Positions 1,661 to 63,300 of a stretch of 64,000 nt of DNA are shown piece after piece. Below the pieces are notes generated by a model. It was not told where the DNA came from. It was given only the letters and a program-made list of their open reading frames with translations, and did no database searches. Location of the stretch: positions 6,388,621 to 6,452,620 of the forward strand of contig NC_091116.1 of the NCBI RefSeq assembly GCF_024713975.1, given 5' to 3'. A program made the position numbers and the translations under genes. This DNA is from Paralichthys olivaceus. Lineage: Eukaryota > Chordata > Actinopteri > Pleuronectiformes > Paralichthyidae. Within the stretch, counting starts at the first letter, position 1. The number at the start of each line of letters is the position of its first letter.

Positions 1661-1707
1661 TCAAAATGTATCAGCACACACAATACATTCGAACCCGCCG
1701 GGGTTAC

Positions 1708-2626
1708 CTTTCCAGTTACTACTTGACACGCATGAGGGCTCCTCTGCTCTTTCAGGCAGGAGGCAACACTCCACCGGGAGACGCCCGTTCTCCAGGGACG
1801 CCCAGCAGCTGTCCCGCAGGACGTGGCAGAAGCTGCGGCAGGGCAGGAGCGAGGGGGCTCGGGGCGAAGGGCACCTGGGGGCCAGCAAGAGGCAGAGGAA
1901 CCACTCTGTGCCGTGGTGACACCCCGCCCTCGTCAGCCACGCCCACTCCTGCAGCGCCGCCCCCACCTCTTCCACAGATGTGTGGTTGAAAAAATTGGGC
2001 AGCGTGAAAAACTTTGACTGTTTGCCCGAGCAAATGGACCAATCAGAGGGCACGGGGAGACACCGTTGGATGCGACCATCGGCGGGGGTCGGCTTTGAAT
2101 CCAGAGCACCCCCAAGAGTTCCGTTCACTTTAAAAACATCACCGGTTAAATTGCGAGGCAGGACTTTATCACCTGTCGAGACCGATTCAAGATCTGTCTC
2201 AAGATCATCTGTGGACGCTGATCCTGAGCCAGATCCATCCCCTGCACCCACCCCAGACCCCTCCTCCAACCTCTCCCCTCGGAGCCTGTCTGTATTACCC
2301 GTCATGTTCGGGGTCACGCTCTCCACCTTCTCTGTGAGGCCTGCGTTAGTAGTCGTGGCGGTCGGGGTCCCGTTCCACGCCTCGACAATCTTACGGATCC
2401 CTGTGGCAACGTCGATGATTTCTTCCCCAAGCCCGGACAGGTTGTCATCCTCCTCCTCCACCTCCACCTTCTTCTCTGTGCCATTGAGTGTCACGGTGGC
2501 ACCTGTCGCTGCCGTCGTCTCTGTTGGGATTTCTGTGGTGGGATTTGGTTTTGGGATCCAAAACCAGGCCTCCAGGCTCCCAGAGCAGAGGACCAAGACA
2601 AGAAGCCACGTCTGGATTCTCCACAT
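1708..2626 (-). CDS. Collagen XVIII alpha-1, first exon of the long (frizzled) isoform, partial gene
   Basis: Collagen XVIII is a secreted basement-membrane heparan sulfate proteoglycan; its C-terminal endostatin and collagenous parts lie outside this window. The exon encodes 306 residues. A signal peptide starts at MWRIQTWLLVLVLC. A mucin-like acidic Ser/Thr/Gly-rich region follows, containing the conserved GLGEEIIDVATGIRKIVEAW stretch (DUF959-type). Last comes a frizzled cysteine-rich domain beginning at RCLPVPSDWSIC, with eleven cysteines. The reading frame is also open from an upstream ATG at 2689, but the ATG at 2626 directly precedes the hydrophobic signal core, so I chose it. The exon ends at a GTAACC donor (1707) in phase 1. 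This combination of DUF959 plus frizzled is, to my knowledge, specific to the collagen XVIII long form. The remaining exons are off the left edge. Confidence 0.88.
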
Positions 2627-3867
2627 GCTGCCGGCTCCTGCAACAGTCCTTCCAAGTGATCCACACGGCGCTCTCACTGTTTCCTCCAATAAGCGCCACC
2701 TGTTAGCCAGCCGGTCAGCAGTTCAATCCAAGCTGTTGGAGGGCCACTGAGCATCCACTGAATGAGAGCTGCAACATAAAAACTCCCACTCTCAGACCCT
2801 CCCTCCAGATCTCAACTCAGTACAACACTGCTGCAAACTCCCTCATAAAAAAAAAAAAAAAAGCTTACATGGACGGGGGGAGACAGAAGTGTGGGGGGAA
2901 GGCTTGCTATATACTGAAGCTGCTGGAAGTCATTGGTTACTCAAGAGTTGCCCCGACACACACTCCTCCCTGTGTGAGCTGAAAAGTCGCTCCCCTAAGA
3001 CCCTTTTCTACCACATGAGAGAAAAAGAATGCAAGCGTGCCTGTTACCGCAATGACACACCCATCCATGCACAGAAGAAATATGGAGTTTTTAAAATACT
3101 GTTTGACCACAATAAAAAGGTTCTGATTAGGATCATTCTGAATTCAAAGCTGTCAAACACAAGACATTTAGAAGACGTGACCTTGAGTTGCAGAAAGTTG
3201 AGTCGTCAGGGATCTGTTGTTTTTAAATCACATTCTGGCACAATTCTTAAATCCAGTTTAAGGATTTAAAGGAATTTTATTTGTCACATGCACAGAGATG
3301 CAAGGTAGAACATGTTTCTGTGCAGGCATAGCAAAGGGATCAATAATAAAGAACATAAACTAGATAAATAAAATAGCATTACATAAAATAAAATACTAGT
3401 ACATTAGGTTGAAGACTTCGTAAAAGCTCTCTACACACAGAAAACATGCAGGCACATTTTCTCAAAACCACTTAGATGACAAGATCGACGCCACACCAGG
3501 TTAATTAAACAAGACACAACATGTTCATTTAATGAGTGTTAGATGTAGACACTTTTTAAAGGGCTAGACATTTAAAGTATAAAGTAATAAACAGATTATT
3601 CCTATAATTATGTTCTCTCTCTTCTCTCATGTGCCAACTATCATGTGATCACTGTGGCTCTTTTCATAAGAAATAAAAGTAGAATTACTGCACTGCGGTT
3701 CTATGCCCCCACCAACCTGAAAGGTTTCTATGTACATATTTCTACATACTTTACCTTTAACCACTGAACATAATCACTTTATCCAAAAATCTTAGTCCAC
3801 TGTCACAAAAACTAACAACCATCCATCCATCCATGATCTACACCACTAAGGGTCTCGAGGCTCTGGG

Positions 3868-50800: not shown

Positions 50801-53800
50801 ATAAGAAAATTCACATTTGAGAAAAATAGGCTTTTGTAAAGGAAAACATCTACATTTTTCAAATTAGGGTATCAATAAAAGTATTTAATATTATATGAAT
50901 TCTAGTTAATAAAATCTAAACAAATAATACCAGGCTTGTGTTTTATATGTGTATATTTTTACAGTGTCTTATTTTAAAGTTTCCTGAAGCACGAGCCTTT
51001 CTTTTTGTTCTTTAAAGATCAGCAGAGAAAACAGAATATATACAAACAACTGTACTTTGGGTTTGTGCATCGTGAAAATATTCTGCCCAAGTGGAGAGGA
51101 TCTTTTATAACTGACTAAATCAAATCCAACTCCTCTGACCGTTTGAGCAGGTTGGTGGAAGGGATGAGGCCGGCGCAGGCTGTGTTGCTGGGAAGTTTCT
51201 TGGCCTGCCACCAGAGGGAATCGGTCTGGTCCACGATTTCGAGCACGTCGCCCTTTCGGAAGCTCATACCGGCGTCAGCGCAGGGGATGGACGGGTCCTG
51301 TTGAGGGCTGTAGTCGGCCATGGCCCGCACATAGAGCTAACACCAGACAAGTTTATAGAGATGATAATATAACAATAAACCTTTTTAACTTGTGACAATG
51401 AGGTAGTATAGAGGATGGTGATTTACCATTGTCTGGTTGTGGACCGGCCTTTCTGTGATGGGAACCACCTTAAACATGATGGTGCCCTGCGACCTCACTT
51501 GCTGAAGACACCACAAGGATTAATTTTTAGTTTTATTTGTTATTCACGGGCGAACGTTAAGTCGCTGTGATGCACTTGACCTACCACGACTTGGATGACC
51601 TGCTCAGGCTCCATCCCGTCCACAGGAAAACCATTCACCTCTATGATCCGGTCCCCTGCATGGAGCAGACCTGCAGACGCACACACATAAATACAAAATG
51701 AATTTAAATATGTGTCACTGCTAAAATAAAGTTATTTTAGCTTCTTAATTAACATTCAGCTCACCACTGCGATCAGCCAGTCCTCCGTGAATCACCCGGG
51801 CAACAAAAATCTCCCCCGTGATCTCGTTCCTCTTTATAGTCGCTCCCTAGAACAAAAAAAGATGCAGAATAAAATCAACCTGTTGAATGTGAAACTGAAT
51901 CACACAAATGAGGACAAATAGACACTGATGGAGTCTGTGGGACGTGAAGACAGGATGAAAACCAAACGCTGAGGTGAAGTAGTTGAAATGAAGGCTCCAG
52001 ATGTCAGATATCGTTGGTGATGAGGAAGAAGGAGATGATGAAAATATGAAAGAATGAAATGGTCCTTACGAGACAAGAAATTTCAACTACCACTGTGCAG
52101 AGATGGCTTGAAAGGACCCATGAAGTCCATTTTCTGGACACTTTGGTCTGCGTGTCTCACGTCGCCTTCTTTTTCTTCTTCTTCTTCTTCTTCTTCTTCT
52201 TCCGCTTGTTTGCGGGACTTCCTTTCTCCTGCCCGTTGATCAGTGGATGCTTGGACGTTTGGAGATCAGCAAAGATGTGCTGTTTCTGAGGCAAAGGGAA
52301 ATTTGGGGCTTTTACGGTGGTTCGAGGTGACCCACCGCAAGACACAGACAGACAACTGGTGCCCTGGGAGGTGGAGGGAGCGTCGAGCAAGCTGCTGAGG
52401 GAGCTTGAAGAGGAGGTGCAGGAAGGGAGTGATGGGAAGGAACATCTGGATTGATGCGTCAGAGATGGACGATGCCCTCGAAGATTTGGACTTTGGCTTT
52501 TCTTGGGTGTGCAGACTTGCTCAGCGACTACATGCTTTGGGGAGTTGATGTCAAACTTCGGGGCAGAGAGGAGGGTCTGCAGCCGGTCCACCACCTGAGT
52601 GAGGAGGACTAAGGCGTGCGAGTTGTCCTGCACCGTCTCTGACATGCGTTCGGTGGCGGCTGCCATCTTCTCCCCCAGGAGCTTGATGTCCTTGGTGCTG
52701 CTCTCCATGGAGCTGGCGGCCAGCTGCACGGTCGTCCTGAGCTCATCCAGACTCTCCTGCTTGGCGAGCTCAACAGGAGGCACCTGGGGCATCTCCATCA
52801 CGCGGTGAGGGCGCATAGGGCTCGGGGGAGCCGTGCGGATGCGAGGGCTTTGGTTTCTGAGCCGAGGAGGCAAGCCTGGCGGGAGGTAGTCGTCTATGTG
52901 GGCACAGTAAGGTACAGTGAGGCACGGGGGAGAAGCGGTCCAACGCCGGGATGCGGGAAGCGGGGATGGGGCATTGGCAGACGTCTCATCCTCATCTCCG
53001 CTGTTGAGCTCTTCTATGATGTTGTCTCCAATGAGAAAACAGAAATTATTAATCCATGACAAACCAGAAGTAGAGGTGATGGAAGATGAAGGTGCAATGA
53101 TGAATGATGAAAAACGCACAGGGTCTTTTTTCCTCAAAATGCAAGCTTCGATCGTGTCTGCAGAAATTATTATAGCTGCTATAGACGGACCTCAAACTAC
53201 AGATTTGATCCAATATAAGAATATCTCTCTTCTGGCTAAAATAGAACATTTCTGATGATATATTTTCATGGTTCAATCGTTGGCCCAGATTTTTTCTTAC
53301 CAATCAGAACAGAGCTGTAGACCGAAGGCGCCGAGCGGTTCAGACTTGGCTCCCAGAGCAGTTTGGCGTAACAAACTCTACACTGGCTCACCGGTTTGCA
53401 ACAGCACATCCGACAGTTACTCGTTGGCTTATATTGAGGTGGGGTGTACGTCCGAGCCCCTACTGGGTGACACAGCGCTTCAGTTGGAGGGTAGCTGCCT
53501 CTTCGAACGCTACCCCACGATGAATCCCTGTCATCGAGGGCCTGGCTCTCGACGGCCGGGCTCTGGAACCCGAATGCGCCGCCTCTGTGGAGCCTTTGCC
53601 GGGTCAGGTGTCTCACGGTTTCCCAGTGATTGCTGATTCCCACTCTGGGGCTTTTTGCACAGGGAGGGGAGGCAGTGGGCAGCGGCCGCCCGACTCTCTG
53701 GTAGTTGCAAAACTGTGAGACAAGAGAGTCACTCAAATATTCAACACAGGGACTGAAGGGTTTGAGAGGAAAGTGTAAAGATGGAATATCTGCTAGGAAA

Positions 53801-55839
53801 AGTGAGATTGAGGCTGCCACAAAGACATAGCAGTAACTAGCTGGAGACACAAGTAGGAAGTATTTTGCAGAGATGGATAGAAAATGTTTTTCTTAGAAAT
53901 CCTTCTCTTTCAGGGGTTTCGAACGTTTGGAAATCATCTGTAGCATCAACAGACAATTCCACAAATGAGAGCTTATAAAATTCTAACATCTGGTCTCTGT
54001 TGGATACATCAGCTGTCTGATTTATATTTGGCAAAAAAACAACCTACATATTAAAATATCCATGTGCATCTGCTTACACAGTACAGTAAAAGAAAATCAA
54101 TGGTCCAATTTACTGTCCAGATACTTTTGGGAACATGCCAGTGACCAGGGGAGTGAATAACTCCAGATTGTTTAAATCCTGATTCAGGGATATGAGTAAA
54201 ATCCACTTAATTTATCCACTCATTTTTATTGGAACTATGTTCTCTCACAGCTACAGTATGACTTCATTAATGTGGCTCCAGAAGGTGAGGTTTATCTGAT
54301 GGGTTTCCCTTATCCCAACAAACCTGTTTTAGTGAGTAGGGATTAAATAAATAAAATGATCTCATCACAGCGTGGCCTTATTTTAGAGCCTAAATAGGGC
54401 CTTAAGAAGCTGTTCCAAAAAATAGCGCTAACCAAACTGAATTTGCAGTTTAATGATTCAACAATGCTTAAATTTAGACTGAGTAACGAGTGGGGATAAG
54501 CCATGTAGCTCACCAAGGGTTGTTTGTTTTTGACCAGGCAGACGATCCTGGTGGCCTCCTCGTCGTCCGGCAGGTCCTCAGGCATCGGCGGCAGCATTGG
54601 CTCGTAGTCCCGCTGGGCCACCGAATCATGAGCAGACAGAAGAGCCTACACACCACGCAGATCAGACACAATACAAACTATTACAATGGTTGTCCAAATA
54701 AGATGTACATTACTGAAATTGAGATAAATATCAGGTCAACGTTAGAAGTCATAAAGCTGTTGCCCATAAAAATCTGCATTCTTTAATGATATTCACTTAA
54801 AATATTTTAGAGGATGTTTGCAGGAATACTATTTCAATATTTATGCAGAAAAATGTAAATAATAAGAATACTATTATCAAGTATATTTCTTGTTTTTGCA
54901 CCTTTTTTACTGAAGCTTTATAGAATGGTTGCATATATGTTACCTATTTAAAGTTTTAATGCTTTAAAAACTATAAACTGGTTTCCTTAACTTGTCAGTA
55001 AGTAAATGAAGAAATAAGCACAGAACCCCAGACACGGTTTCTTACCTGCAGGTGAGGCTGCCGCAGGAGACGGTAGAGCTCTTTGGCCTCTTCCGAGCCG
55101 CCCGGTAACGCCCTGATGTCGATCAGCAACTACACACACAGGGATTACGACACATATTTAATAAAAACATGGCTACAAAATGACTGTGAGCAAGATGTCG
55201 TTAAAAAAAACCAATCCAAGTAAAACCTGAAGTGAGAGTCCCGAAGCGTAGTCCAGAACCGGAGCTGGGGAATCTCTCAGGTGCCTCTGAAGACACTCGT
55301 AGACCTGAAAACAAATAATTTAGAATTTAATAATAAAAGCAGTTATTTACAGCAAGTGGGAAAAAGGAAAAATCTTCCCTCACACACTTTAAGGTTGTTT
55401 TTCATCATTAGTGGGTGATAGGTTAAAGGCTAGGCTCACATTTCTTCTTTAAAACAATAATAATTTGTCCATTTGCAACTTATTATTTCTCTCTGGTAAA
55501 AATATCTTTGTGGGGCCTGTTATTAACAGAAAATTAATCAAACAATTTTTTTACGGGGCAGTTTTGGAGTCACCTTGAGCAGCGACTGCAGCCAGGGGGC
55601 GTTCAACAAACTGTGGAGAACCTCCGCTCCATCGATGTCCGGATCTACCGCCTGCCTCACCTCCTCGATCACATCCGTCAGGATCTGACGCAGGCCTGCG
55701 ACACATGAACACACACACCAGGATTATTATTTAGAGTGTGAAAATTTAAATCTATGAAGAAACTAAACGTGCCCTACTGACCGTGTTCTCCAAGTTCACA
55801 GTGGGGGTTTAACACCTGAGCCTCCACCGCCTGCCTCAT
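47845..55839 (-). CDS. mpp4: MAGUK p55 subfamily member 4 (membrane palmitoylated protein 4)
   Basis: MPP4 is a membrane-associated scaffold, in mammals best known at photoreceptor synapses. Twenty-one coding exons join in frame to 630 aa: 55782-55839, 55574-55695, 55227-55304, 55046-55129, 54514-54645, 51765-51846, 51585-51670, 51427-51501, 51140-51336, 50606-50664, 50452-50469, 50308-50349, 50186-50206, 50039-50053, 49737-49775, 49439-49612, 49222-49302, 48979-49072, 48789-48897, 48445-48579, 47845-48036. Domains: two L27 ([13 protein letters not shown] to [16 protein letters not shown]), PDZ ([20 protein letters not shown]), SH3 ([20 protein letters not shown]), acidic hook from five tiny exons, GUK ([31 protein letters not shown]) ending in WIRPTTES. 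The GUK loop lacks the Lys of a real kinase P-loop, as in MAGUKs generally. [14 protein letters not shown] and [11 protein letters not shown] point to MPP4 rather than MPP3/7. The start [13 protein letters not shown] is provisional: open exons upstream offer another N terminus. Confidence 0.93.
50039..50469 (-). other. mpp4: Hook-region microexon cluster of mpp4
   Basis: Four microexons of 18, 42, 21 and 15 bases (50452-50469, 50308-50349, 50186-50206, 50039-50053), followed by one of 39 bases (49737-49775). They encode [30 protein letters not shown] and an [12 protein letters not shown] segment. All have phase 1 on both sides, so any subset can be skipped without frame change. Splice sites have AG/GT ends; the acceptors of the 18- and 15-base exons (CTGAAG and TGTCAG) are the weakest. 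Confidence 0.75.
52157..53712 (-). CDS. Unrecognised two-exon coding unit inside an mpp4 intron
   Basis: I do not recognise this protein. Exon d, 53301-53712, has acceptor CTCACAG and donor TTG/GTAAG and encodes 137 codons plus one base. Exon e, 52157-53025, joins it in phase 1 and runs 288 codons to a TGA. Seen: exon d has a Cys cluster ([15 protein letters not shown]) in a basic, Ser/Pro-rich context; exon e has an acidic start ([13 protein letters not shown]), a Pro-rich segment, an amphipathic helix suggestive of a coiled coil ([20 protein letters not shown] to VVDRLQTLL), a Ser-rich stretch and a poly-Lys tail written by a TTC repeat. The whole sits in the mpp4 intron 51847-54513, same strand. 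Exon d is open 5' of its acceptor to an ATG at 53850, but the good acceptor suggests an internal exon. Its phase-0 start fits mpp4 exon 54514-54645 (alternative C terminus) or the open exons at 56.4-56.8 kb (separate gene interleaved with mpp4). The end of the transcript is unknown. Confidence 0.55.
52167..52202. repeat. TTC/GAA trinucleotide repeat in coding sequence
   Basis: About a dozen near-perfect TTC units on the plus strand, read on the minus strand as a run of lysine codons (AAG/AAA) just before the stop of the unrecognised coding unit. Length variation here would change only the poly-Lys count. Confidence 0.8.
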
Positions 55840-56448: not shown

Positions 56449-56592
56449 CTGTACGTCCTCGTCCTCAGGGATGCTGCGAACCTCCGTCCTGCAGCTCCTG
56501 CGGGTTTTAGCACCGTTATTGGTGCAGGAATCTGAAGATATGATGGGAAAATATTCCCTGAAGACTGGACGGAGCCCTACGCTTTCATCAAA
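56449..56592 (-). CDS. Candidate 144-base exon upstream of mpp4
   Basis: Strong splice signals: a long CT-rich tract (56595-56640) before the CTGTAG acceptor and a CAG/GTAAGA donor at 56449/56448. Exactly 48 codons, phase 0 on both sides and no stop, beginning FDESVGLRPVFREYFP and ending RSIPEDEDVQ. It may be an N-terminal exon of mpp4, reached through a 16-base segment 55889-55904 (VIASP plus one base) that splices in phase 1 to 55574-55695, or part of the unrecognised gene with exons inside mpp4. I know no homologue. Confidence 0.45.
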
Positions 56593-56604
56593 CTACAGGG
56601 AACG

Positions 56605-56642
56605 AGGGAGAGAGAGAGACTGAGAGAGAGAGAGAAAGAGAG
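56605..56642. repeat. GA/CT microsatellite
   Basis: GAGAGA with minor interruptions on the plus strand. Read on the minus strand it forms the polypyrimidine tract of the acceptor at 56593. Confidence 0.8.
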
Positions 56643-56728
56643 GAGGGCTGTAATCTCTCCCGATCCCACTTAATCCTGAGCAAGTGAGCTGCCTCCCTCT
56701 GGCCACCGGAAGCCAGTTCCCCTCTCAC

Positions 56729-56776
56729 CGGCTGGCTGGTTGTCACCGTGCTGCCAAATCTTCTTAACTCTTTCAG
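56729..56776 (-). CDS. Candidate 48-base exon upstream of mpp4
   Basis: Acceptor TAAAAG preceded by a pyrimidine-rich tract (CCTCCTTCTCCTGCGTGCC) and donor CCG/GTGAGA. Sixteen codons, phase 0 on both sides, LKELRRFGSTVTTSQP, joining in frame to the 56449-56592 exon. Short, so chance openness is possible; the support is the pair of good splice sites and the matching phase. No start codon exon was found upstream. Confidence 0.35.
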
Positions 56777-60343: not shown

Positions 60344-63300
60344 CTAAGTGATCTTCTCATGCTGGATCTGGTAGTAACACGCCTGTAGGTGGATAGTACA
60401 AGCACATAAATCCCTTTAAAACCAGGAGGCGATTAACTGGTAGTGTAATTGAACAGTTTCCATTTCCCCGTGTTAGGAGCAAATAACAAAATCCATTTTT
60501 CTTTTATAGCATTTAGGATTGTACAATTAAATCTAGAGGAGCTCTCCATTATATTGAATGACAGGAAGCTCTGCGTTACCTTGAGCGTGGTGAACATGAT
60601 TCCATGCTCTCCATGCTGGACGCTGGGGTCCATCAGGTCTTCGATCAGGCTGACCTCTGACCCCAGGTTCCTGATACTGAAGGGGGAATTTTAAACAACA
60701 TTGAAATTGAAAGCCTAGACATTGAGTATATATCATTATATAAAATATTATGCAGTTTTGTCCTGTTGGTCTGACCTTTTTAATATTTCATTCACCAAAC
60801 TATAAGCAAGGGATTACAACAAGAGTGTTTCACAATCTTTGTTCATTTTTAGATCTGCTTCAGCATTATTACTTGTGTGTGTGTGTGTAGTTTAGTGTGT
60901 GATGGAATGAGTTCTGGGGCTGACCGAGCTCGCAGCACAACGTAGAGGAAGACAGGGAAGAGGTCGTCCATGGACCACAGGAAGTCTTGCTTCAGCAGCG
61001 ACTGGACTTCCTGCGTGATCTCCTCGAATGTGAGCTGGATCACCTGCAGCTTGTCAGACGGAGTGAACGTTGTGCTGCAAACACACAACAAACACAAATA
61101 TATATATTTTTCGCCCCATTTTATTCTTCCTTTTCCAACTTGATTCTAAGTGAACTGTGTTGTGTTTATTTTCACAACATAAGAGGAAACTACAACTGCA
61201 TTTCACGGTGCTGTCTTCTGAATTATAATAATAAATATGCACTGTGAACCTTGCATGCAAACCAAGGGTCAGTTCCTTTGTATCTACAACCAAAAAAACT
61301 GGTTCATCTGGTGTCAGTCAGTCTGACAGTTTATTTAACATGAAAAACCTCATAAGCTCTTTAGGCTAGTGTAAATATTTAACTTGTTCTACAGTTGTTA
61401 AAGAGTTTTACCTAATCTGTTGCAGAGTTTCCACTGCAGAAGCAAAGCAGGCGTCTTTGGTGCTGGAGAGAACCTGTCGGAGACAAATGGGCAGAAACGC
61501 AACTGTTTACATCTTCATACAGTACAAGAAATACAGTTAATTCAGCTTTAGCAGGTGACTAATTTAATAATAAAGCTTGATCTGAATGCAAACTTCTGTT
61601 TGAGCCTAAATCAATTGTGTGATTGTAAATTAAGTACCTGGATTTTTGTTGTCGATGTACTTGGGGTAGAGTAAGATGAACAACCAAAACGTACCTGCTG
61701 CTTCTCCCCCAGTGCAGGCATGCAGACAGAAATGGTAACAGGCCAGAATTTTCTGGGGTAGGAAAGAAAGCAGGTCAAGCATTTGTTCAGGATTCAGACG
61801 AAAAAACAGGAAATAATCTCTTTCCCAGTGTGGCACGTACTGCTGGACGCCCAGGAAGGCGAGGAGGGCAAGGTCAGCCTGCTTATTGAGGCGGAGGACG
61901 CAATCCCAGTAGACGCCGTCTTCCTTCTCTTTGTCTAGAGCGTAGAGGGTGAAGAGTGGCGGGTAGAGGCGAGGCAGTAGGACGGGAAGCAGCAGAGCCG
62001 AGCAGCTGACCACACGGCTGAGTGCAGAGGACACACAGGAGGGTTAAATAAGACCAGCTGATGTCTTCAGCATCACAAAAAAAGCTTTAAAGAGGGAAAT
62101 CGTTGGTTTACACAGGTTTGGGTGACTGCGGCGGGGCATCAGTCGAGCCTGGCTCCTTCTGGTCTGGTAGGTTCGTGGTTGGCTCTGGAATTTGGCCACC
62201 CTCTTCTGGCAGGTCTGGGAACAGAAACCTGCAGAGGATTGAAGAACCCATGATGGAAACTGCATATGAGGTTGTTTATATCACATGTAGAATTGCGGTT
62301 GATGGTTATTTTTACGGTTTCTGGGGTTTTATAGACAAGTAATTTCCCCAGCTGCTCAAAAAAACCCTAGAGGAAACACTGCTATGTGATTAAAATCATA
62401 GCGATACACAAATCTGAGATAAGAGGACATTTAGAAATAAAAGCTGCATTGTATGTTAAGCACCTGACAATCTGGAAGATGCGGTTGAGGTAAGACTTGA
62501 TCTCATTGACAGCCTGAGGCAGGAGTCGCCGGTTGGCTCCAACGCCCACGTAGGTCATCCTGTAGACCGCCACCAGGGTCTCCACCAGCCGTCCCAGTGG
62601 GTGGAGTGGGGTGTCACAAGCCTGAGAGCGGGAGATATTTTTACAATCCTGAATAATTATAGTGTTTTCAGTGGGAGTGAGGAGCGGTGGGTGGATTCAC
62701 CTTGATGAGGTAGAGGCGGATGATGTGATATCTGTCCATAGTAATGGGTCCCACATGCTGCGGGATGACCTCCAGACTCTCCAGGGTTCTACTGTGGCTC
62801 CGAGAGAGAATCTCCGGCCTGAGATAAAATGGAAAATTATAATATGATCCAGCTATAATCTAAATATAAAACATTCATGTTTAACCGATCCAAAAACATA
62901 CAAATGACAGAGAGAGCGTTACACAAATCGCATCATGTCGCGTGTACCTGTCCTGGATCTGCCACCGGTTGGTGGTGAGGGCCACAGCTATGTTCTCCCA
63001 CGCCTTCCAGTTTTCTCCTTGGCCCGACGTCTCACATCCCAGCTGACTCCAACACTCGACAAACACCGCCTGCCACTTATCCTCCGAGCACACACACAGA
63101 CGGCCGAGCTTCCTGCAAGATCACACACAAAGTATATGATGTATATAATATGGCGAATACGACGTCCACGCTGATGATTTCTGACACTGTTAGCTTACAC
63201 AACATGAGTCTTTTCTTTGTCGGCGTCGAATAGGTGTGGTTTGAAGTAGGAGCCCGTCACCTTGAGGCTGGAGCCCCATTCACCACCAAAGGAGCCCTCC

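Follow-up and report, generated by a model that had tools for sequence, protein, structure and literature searches.

A candidate alternative 3' end within an intron of mpp4 in Paralichthys olivaceus, with a counterpart in the second mpp4 gene

Introduction

To which gene product do two open exons inside an intron of mpp4 belong? The question arises in a 64,000-nucleotide stretch of the Paralichthys olivaceus genome (588 Mb, 25 contigs), referred to below as the window (C24:6388621-6452620; positions without a prefix are those of the window). The two exons, here termed d and e, lie between the mpp4 L27C exon (54645-54514) and the first PDZ exon (from 51846), on the same strand as the gene. The initial annotation had described them as a 425-codon coding unit and had offered three readings: a self-contained nested gene, an alternative C terminus giving an L27-only mpp4 isoform, or the 3' half of a gene that also uses open exons at 56449-56776. 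We compared the locus with a second mpp4 gene on contig C10; the comparison covers one genome and two mpp4 copies.

Results

Structure and open length of exons d and e

The two exons are as follows.

53301..53712, minus strand: exon d, start of the new tail; 412 nt, entered in phase 0 and left in phase 1; contains an HW..VR.LT..RL motif, a Cys cluster and an LW...LN.SAPSV.S motif; C10 homologue L010:4769-5114
52157..53025, minus strand: exon e, remainder of the new tail, including the stop codon; 869 nt including TGA; Pro-rich part, coiled coil, Ser-rich part and Lys-rich end; C10 homologue L010:5529-6607

Both exons are open, with GT/AG at the junctions; spliced together in phase 1, they encode 426 residues. 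The junctions in the window read CACAG/TTTTGC into exon d, TGATTG/GTAAGA at the exon d donor and TTGGAG/ACAACA into exon e. The coordinates given initially (53712-53301 and 53025-52157) were exact and the phase-1 join was upheld; the open two-exon unit also stood, but its product is one residue longer than the 425 claimed. The splice sites had been called good; scored with an approximate splice matrix, the acceptor of exon e is weak in the window (3.0 bits, and 5.1 bits for its C10 counterpart). By the same matrix, the acceptors of exon d, the PDZ exon and the canonical L27C exon score 9.0, 11.6 and 2.0 bits, and the exon e acceptor is thus not below that of the L27C exon.

Of 500 dinucleotide shuffles each, none reached the open length of exon e or of the whole intron, and two reached that of exon d; since the limits of d and e had been picked for being open, the figures for those two exons are flattered. 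A genome-wide DNA search returned the window's own copy as its sole match, and exons d and e are therefore not a dispersed repeat. A repeat or mobile origin was rejected on this result, together with the finding that the tail has no relative besides the one on C10 at E≤0.1.

A second copy of both exons in the mpp4 gene on C10

A genome search with the window tail (414 of the 426 residues) returned seven matches at E≤10. Two of these are exons d and e, and one is a relative on C10 (43% identity at E 6.2e-13, over query residues 217-359); the other four, at E 0.308 to 5.27, were treated as chance. The reciprocal search, in which the C10 protein (340 of 474 residues) was the query, gave six matches: the pair of C10 exons, the window (E 4.1e-13), and three more between E 0.189 and 7.09. 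C10 is the sole other match in the genome at E≤0.1, and the match lies in the corresponding intron of the second mpp4 gene. The mpp4 exons surrounding the tail in the window are listed below.

55782..55839, minus strand: proposed first coding exon of mpp4 (ATG at 55839), common to the canonical product and the proposed isoform; read from the sequence, joins in frame
55574..55695, minus strand: L27 exon; 122 nt, phase 1 in, phase 0 out; C10 counterpart L010:2819-2940 of equal length and phase
55227..55304, minus strand: L27 exon; 78 nt, phase 0; C10 counterpart L010:3014-3091 of equal length
55046..55129, minus strand: L27 exon; 84 nt, phase 0; C10 counterpart L010:3276-3359 of equal length
54514..54645, minus strand: L27C exon; 132 nt, ends in phase 0; C10 counterpart L010:4397-4528, 73% identical
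51765..51846, minus strand: first PDZ exon of canonical mpp4; starts in phase 0; alternative partner of the L27C donor

All 2,194 window ORFs of at least 20 aa were compared with 30 kb of C10, 12.8 kb of it upstream of the first L27 exon located there, and 57 matches were seen at E≤0.01. Through the mpp4 region of C10 the matches follow one another as L27 exons, exon d, exon e, PDZ, SH3 and later exons, and then tmem237, an order of genes and exons identical to that of the window; the TMEM237 identity in the window was confirmed by Pfam. A counterpart of the first coding exon was not located in C10. A few other rows among the ORF matches represent repeats or chance.

The four L27 exons are equally long in the window and in C10 (122, 78, 84 and 132 nt), and splice phases match at every junction compared. 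The L27C donor of C10 reads CTG/GTGAGA. Exon d, of 412 nt in the window and 346 nt in C10, is entered in phase 0 and left in phase 1 in both; exon e, of 869 and 1079 nt, respectively, runs from phase 1 to a stop in both. The intron from the L27C exon to exon d is shorter in C10 (240 bp) than in the window (801 bp). In our view of these sequences, the most decisive evidence for exons d and e is that the C10 copy of mpp4 keeps both of them, in the same intron and in the same phases. The description of d and e as a same-strand coding unit inside an mpp4 intron is thus well supported by the C10 copy.

The C10 gene also carries two tandem arrays. The intron before its L27C exon contains a minisatellite of approximately 1 kb (L010:3348-4366), whose unit is similar to the 3' end of the L27 exon before it, together with its donor; CACCTCCAGGT occurs in 19 copies in L010:3331-4400, the real site included, and the minisatellite amounts to many decoy 5' splice sites next to the real one. 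Between the tail stop and the PDZ exon of C10 lies a (CAT)n array of approximately 55 units (L010:6915-7078), which is possibly within a 3' untranslated region.

Conservation and coding signature of the tail

The blocks kept in C10 are the HW..VR.LT..RL motif, the Cys patch, the LW...LN.SAPSV.S motif, the coil and the Lys-rich end. The Cys cluster noted at the outset comprises six Cys in the window, but only three of the six align with Cys in C10. The best conserved segment is the following.

52556..52768, minus strand: 71-residue coiled-coil block in exon e (ending ...LLSAPK); 52% identical to C10 over the 71 residues; heptads; predicted helix

Protein alignment of the two copies scored 93 for exon d (500 shuffles, 29.4±4.9, maximum 47) and 250 for exon e (500 shuffles, 51.2±8.8, maximum 82). 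The Pro-rich part before the coil showed no alignable similarity between window and C10 (37 versus a shuffle mean of 36.7). The part after the coil scored 90 (shuffle mean 45.8, maximum 78); without the final 30 residues in the window and 25 in C10 it scored 59 (43.9±7.4, maximum 69), which is unconvincing. Of the last 25 residues, 15 are basic in the window and 11 in C10. Both Lys-rich ends are encoded by AAG repeats, and they could be convergent.

In the coil and the exon d blocks, which make up 119 of the 382 aligned codons, the codon differences at positions 1, 2 and 3 numbered 41, 33 and 66 (Fisher p=1.2e-5), a test that is favoured because these codons were picked as conserved once the alignment had been seen. 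A third-position excess was also present across all 382 codons (0.48, 0.42 and 0.66 at positions 1, 2 and 3). The NG86 dN/dS values were 0.40/1.14 for the coil, 0.46/1.68 for the exon d blocks, 0.96/2.25 for the part before the coil and 0.70/2.54 for all 382 aligned codons, with dS saturated after the coil. The canonical exons gave 0.19/3.4 (L27), 0.14/1.2 (PDZ) and 0.26/3.0 (SH3, where the last codons overrun the C10 donor). Compared with these, the tail is constrained, yet looser than the domains, and at the level of sequence a purifying pattern in it is evident.

These results bear on the possibility that d and e are non-functional, being either a chance open pair or a decaying remnant. The fast divergence of the tail, the weak polyadenylation signals described below and the weak exon e acceptor in the window would suit such an origin. 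Against it, both copies are open with matching phases and show the third-position excess, and none of 27 antisense ORFs over d and e matches C10, unlike the antisense of several canonical exons, which does match. The existence of the C10 copy strongly disfavours a non-functional pair, and we regard this explanation as highly improbable.

The coil and the predicted structure of the tail

In the coil, the a and d positions are 83% hydrophobic in both copies (best of seven registers), as against 27-29% elsewhere. The heptad run is continuous and has Asn at one a position in both copies; Asn at an a position favours parallel dimers. The coil, of about nine heptads, probably dimerises.

AlphaFold2 was run on exon e with a two-sequence alignment. 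The model contained one confident long helix (residues 87-153; block pLDDT 93-98 over residues 91-150) and a short helix over the Lys-rich end (residues 270-287; block pLDDT 79-84), and was of low confidence elsewhere (mean pLDDT 57, pTM 0.29). The exon d model was of low confidence throughout (mean pLDDT 41). The Pro/Ser-rich linkers, modelled at low confidence, are probably disordered.

Start and end of the proposed transcript

The L27C donor (54514) has two possible in-frame partners, the PDZ exon and exon d, and the phase-0 link from this donor to exon d is kept in both copies. When the upstream mpp4 exons from the ATG at 55839 were joined in frame to d and e, the product had 584 residues, and Pfam recognised L27 in its upstream part (E=3.1e-28, two stretches).

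A self-contained nested gene would instead have its own promoter and a start exon in or upstream of the intron, and would produce a free coiled-coil protein. Such a gene would account for a tail that matches no MAGUK domain and forms a coherent protein of its own with a stop, and the 801 bp window intron has room for a start exon; mechanically defined start exons ending in phase 0 numbered seven in the upstream intron of the window and four in that of C10. By eye, however, these candidates do not match between the copies, and at 240 bp the C10 intron is short. Read from its last upstream stop, the frame of exon d contains no Met in C10 and a single Met in the window, which sits inside the Cys cluster, and the conserved residues start well before it. 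A comparison of ORFs of at least 20 aa between window and C10 found no conserved ORF between the mpp4 exons except d and e. A start exon farther upstream is still conceivable. Since the copies share no Met in exon d and no start exon in the intron before it, and the phase-0 fit is kept in both, an alternative C terminus of mpp4 is preferred, and the nested gene appears unlikely. The suggestion that the tail also uses the open exons at 56449-56776 found no backing, as none of the 16 overlapping window ORFs (at least 20 aa) matched the 30 kb of C10.

The 3' side of the tail was also inspected. In the window, the tail stop is followed by no AATAAA before the PDZ exon; the first is at 51537, past the second PDZ exon. 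Past the tail stop of C10 only variant signals were seen, AATAGA at 42 nt and AGTAAA at 64 nt.

The L27C exon ends and the PDZ exon begins in phase 0, which would allow a longer in-frame cassette between them, made of exon d and an exon e shortened at an internal donor, in an MPP4 with all its domains. Donor-like sites in phase 0 occur within exon e of both copies (window, 52784 and 52595; C10, L010:5845 and 6436), but they reach only 4.6-6.3 bits by the approximate matrix and were judged not to correspond between the copies. Splicing at 52784 or 52595 would remove or truncate the conserved coil (52768-52556), and a donor-like site at the end of exon e (52161, 5.5 bits by that matrix) is in phase 2 and leads to a stop in the PDZ exon. 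We consider such a cassette very improbable.

Taken on the evidence of phase, openness and conservation in the two genes, exons d and e are likely to be an alternative 3' end of mpp4, and the reading as an L27-only isoform is the best supported of the three proposed initially.

Searches for relatives of the tail

Pfam gave none of PDZ, SH3 or GUK in the tail, in agreement with the initial statement that it resembles no MAGUK domain. With the window tail nothing was found in Pfam at the cut-off (best E 0.36, over the Lys-rich end), in NCBIfam (E≤1) or in PDB (E≤1), and the C10 tail had no Pfam match at E≤5. The coil alone gave sub-cutoff Pfam matches in the window (E 0.013 and 0.052) and none in C10.

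A genome search with the L27C-PDZ part produced 23 matches at E≤0.001. Beyond the two mpp4 genes, four loci match over the L27C exon at E≤3e-9, on C21, C17, C5 and C16; we take these to be MPP3/7-like. Their L27C-PDZ introns measure about 301, 15247, 126 and 2526 bp, respectively, between aligned ends. No credible relative of the tail was found in the 20 kb downstream of each of the four L27C exons, where tblastn of the tail gave 12 matches at E≤10, the best at 0.41. As far as these four loci go, the tail appears to be specific to mpp4.

One short C21 ORF matched the exon d profile at E 0.0014 and the whole-tail profile at E 0.0086. It lies some 18 kb away, approximately 18.6 kb from the start of C21:4979100-4999099 (reverse) and outside the L27C-PDZ intron, and was set aside as presumably chance or composition.

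Other origins were also considered. A non-coding RNA was rejected, as the window has no Rfam match at the gathering score. No phage similarity was seen, and pattern searches of public viral and prokaryote contigs yielded 60 and 113 matches with none confirmed, as expected for a fish gene. In the literature, no such isoform appears in the titles or abstract openings of the matches listed, most subscription journals being outside the scope of that search. Fish annotation may already list such transcripts.

Age and origin of the two copies

Upstream of mpp4 in the window lies an exon (61630-62043, minus strand; no Pfam family) that we take to belong to als2. Its only other genome match is on C10 (C10:15556987-15557157), approximately 15 Mb from the C10 mpp4 gene, and the block therefore seems rearranged on C10. 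The presence of mpp4, tmem237 and als2 each on C24 and C10 fits the teleost genome duplication, and by this pairing exons d and e probably predate that event. Teleost genome duplicates are about 300 million years old, according to an abstract. A later segmental duplication is formally conceivable instead; the high dS of the canonical exons as well (1.2 to 3.4) argues for an old split.

At the other end of the window, a 353-codon open frame (1661-2722, minus strand) encodes an Fz domain of the frizzled type (E 2.1e-15) and matches DUF959 below the cut-off. It resembles the N-terminal part of a gene of the collagen XVIII type, which is presumably not adjacent to MPP4 in human.

Discussion

In the preferred reading of exons d and e as an alternative 3' end, the choice of partner for one donor would decide between two products. 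Splicing from the L27C donor (54514) to the PDZ exon (51846) would give the ordinary MAGUK, and splicing from the same donor to exon d (53712), in a transcript whose existence we infer, would give a protein of 584 residues in which both L27 domains are followed by the new tail. The tail would consist of a short HW motif, a Cys-rich patch, Pro/Ser linkers, a long coiled coil and a very basic C-terminal end. Having no PDZ, SH3 or GUK, the proposed product would be an isoform of the MPP4 gene and not itself a MAGUK.

The L27 domains of MPP4 are described as binding LIN7 and pairing with PSD-95beta, and the L27 homodimer as recruiting PMCAs (PMC7662862). The isoform would presumably keep the L27 partners of MPP4 (LIN7/Veli, PSD-95beta) while being uncoupled from the ligands of PDZ-SH3-GUK. 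It might compete with the ordinary scaffold or re-address it, for example at photoreceptor terminals, and could perhaps be tethered by its basic or Cys-rich segments. As a whole, we put forward only tentatively, and with somewhat more doubt than confidence, that a teleost MPP4 isoform older than the duplication has the PDZ-SH3-GUK half swapped for a coiled-coil, basic-ended tail, that it serves as an L27 adaptor opposing or re-routing the scaffold at photoreceptor synapses, and that the tail constitutes a family without a known relative.

If the junction is real, the gene would have two products, a full synaptic scaffold and an adaptor; the adaptor would retain the recruiting half of the scaffold and lack the half that binds ligands. 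The finding would also bring to light a coding family that both duplicates retain and that is missing from the domain libraries searched (Pfam, NCBIfam).

Several known systems invite comparison. The proposed product shares with MPP4 (membrane palmitoylated protein 4), a MAGUK of the p55 subfamily, its gene and both L27 domains, and differs from it in having no PDZ, SH3 or GUK and in carrying an unrelated tail of 426 residues. RIBEYE is a retinal isoform in which the product of one gene gains a large unrelated N-terminal part; here the unrelated part would be a C-terminal tail, and the likeness is one of architecture. RIBEYE is listed as isoform 2 of CtBP2 (PMC12710781).

MAGUK isoforms that differ in L27 include MPP4 without L27, varicose long and short, PSD-95 with and without L27, and DlgA and Dlg-S97, and the MPP4 isoform without L27 is described as retina-specific (PMC2414870). 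In those cases, as here, one gene would yield scaffolds with and without a set of domains; those four, however, change L27 and keep the rest, whereas in the fish gene L27 would be kept and all that follows replaced. The L27-plus-tail isoform would, if true, be the complement of the retina-specific MPP4 isoform.

In mice with only the two L27 domains of MPP4, PSD-95 is reported to be strongly reduced at photoreceptor synapses (PMC7662862). The mouse protein likewise has L27 without PDZ-SH3-GUK, but it is apparently a mutant, and it is not described as having a new tail. The fish isoform, if it exists, would be a natural version of the L27-only state described in mice.
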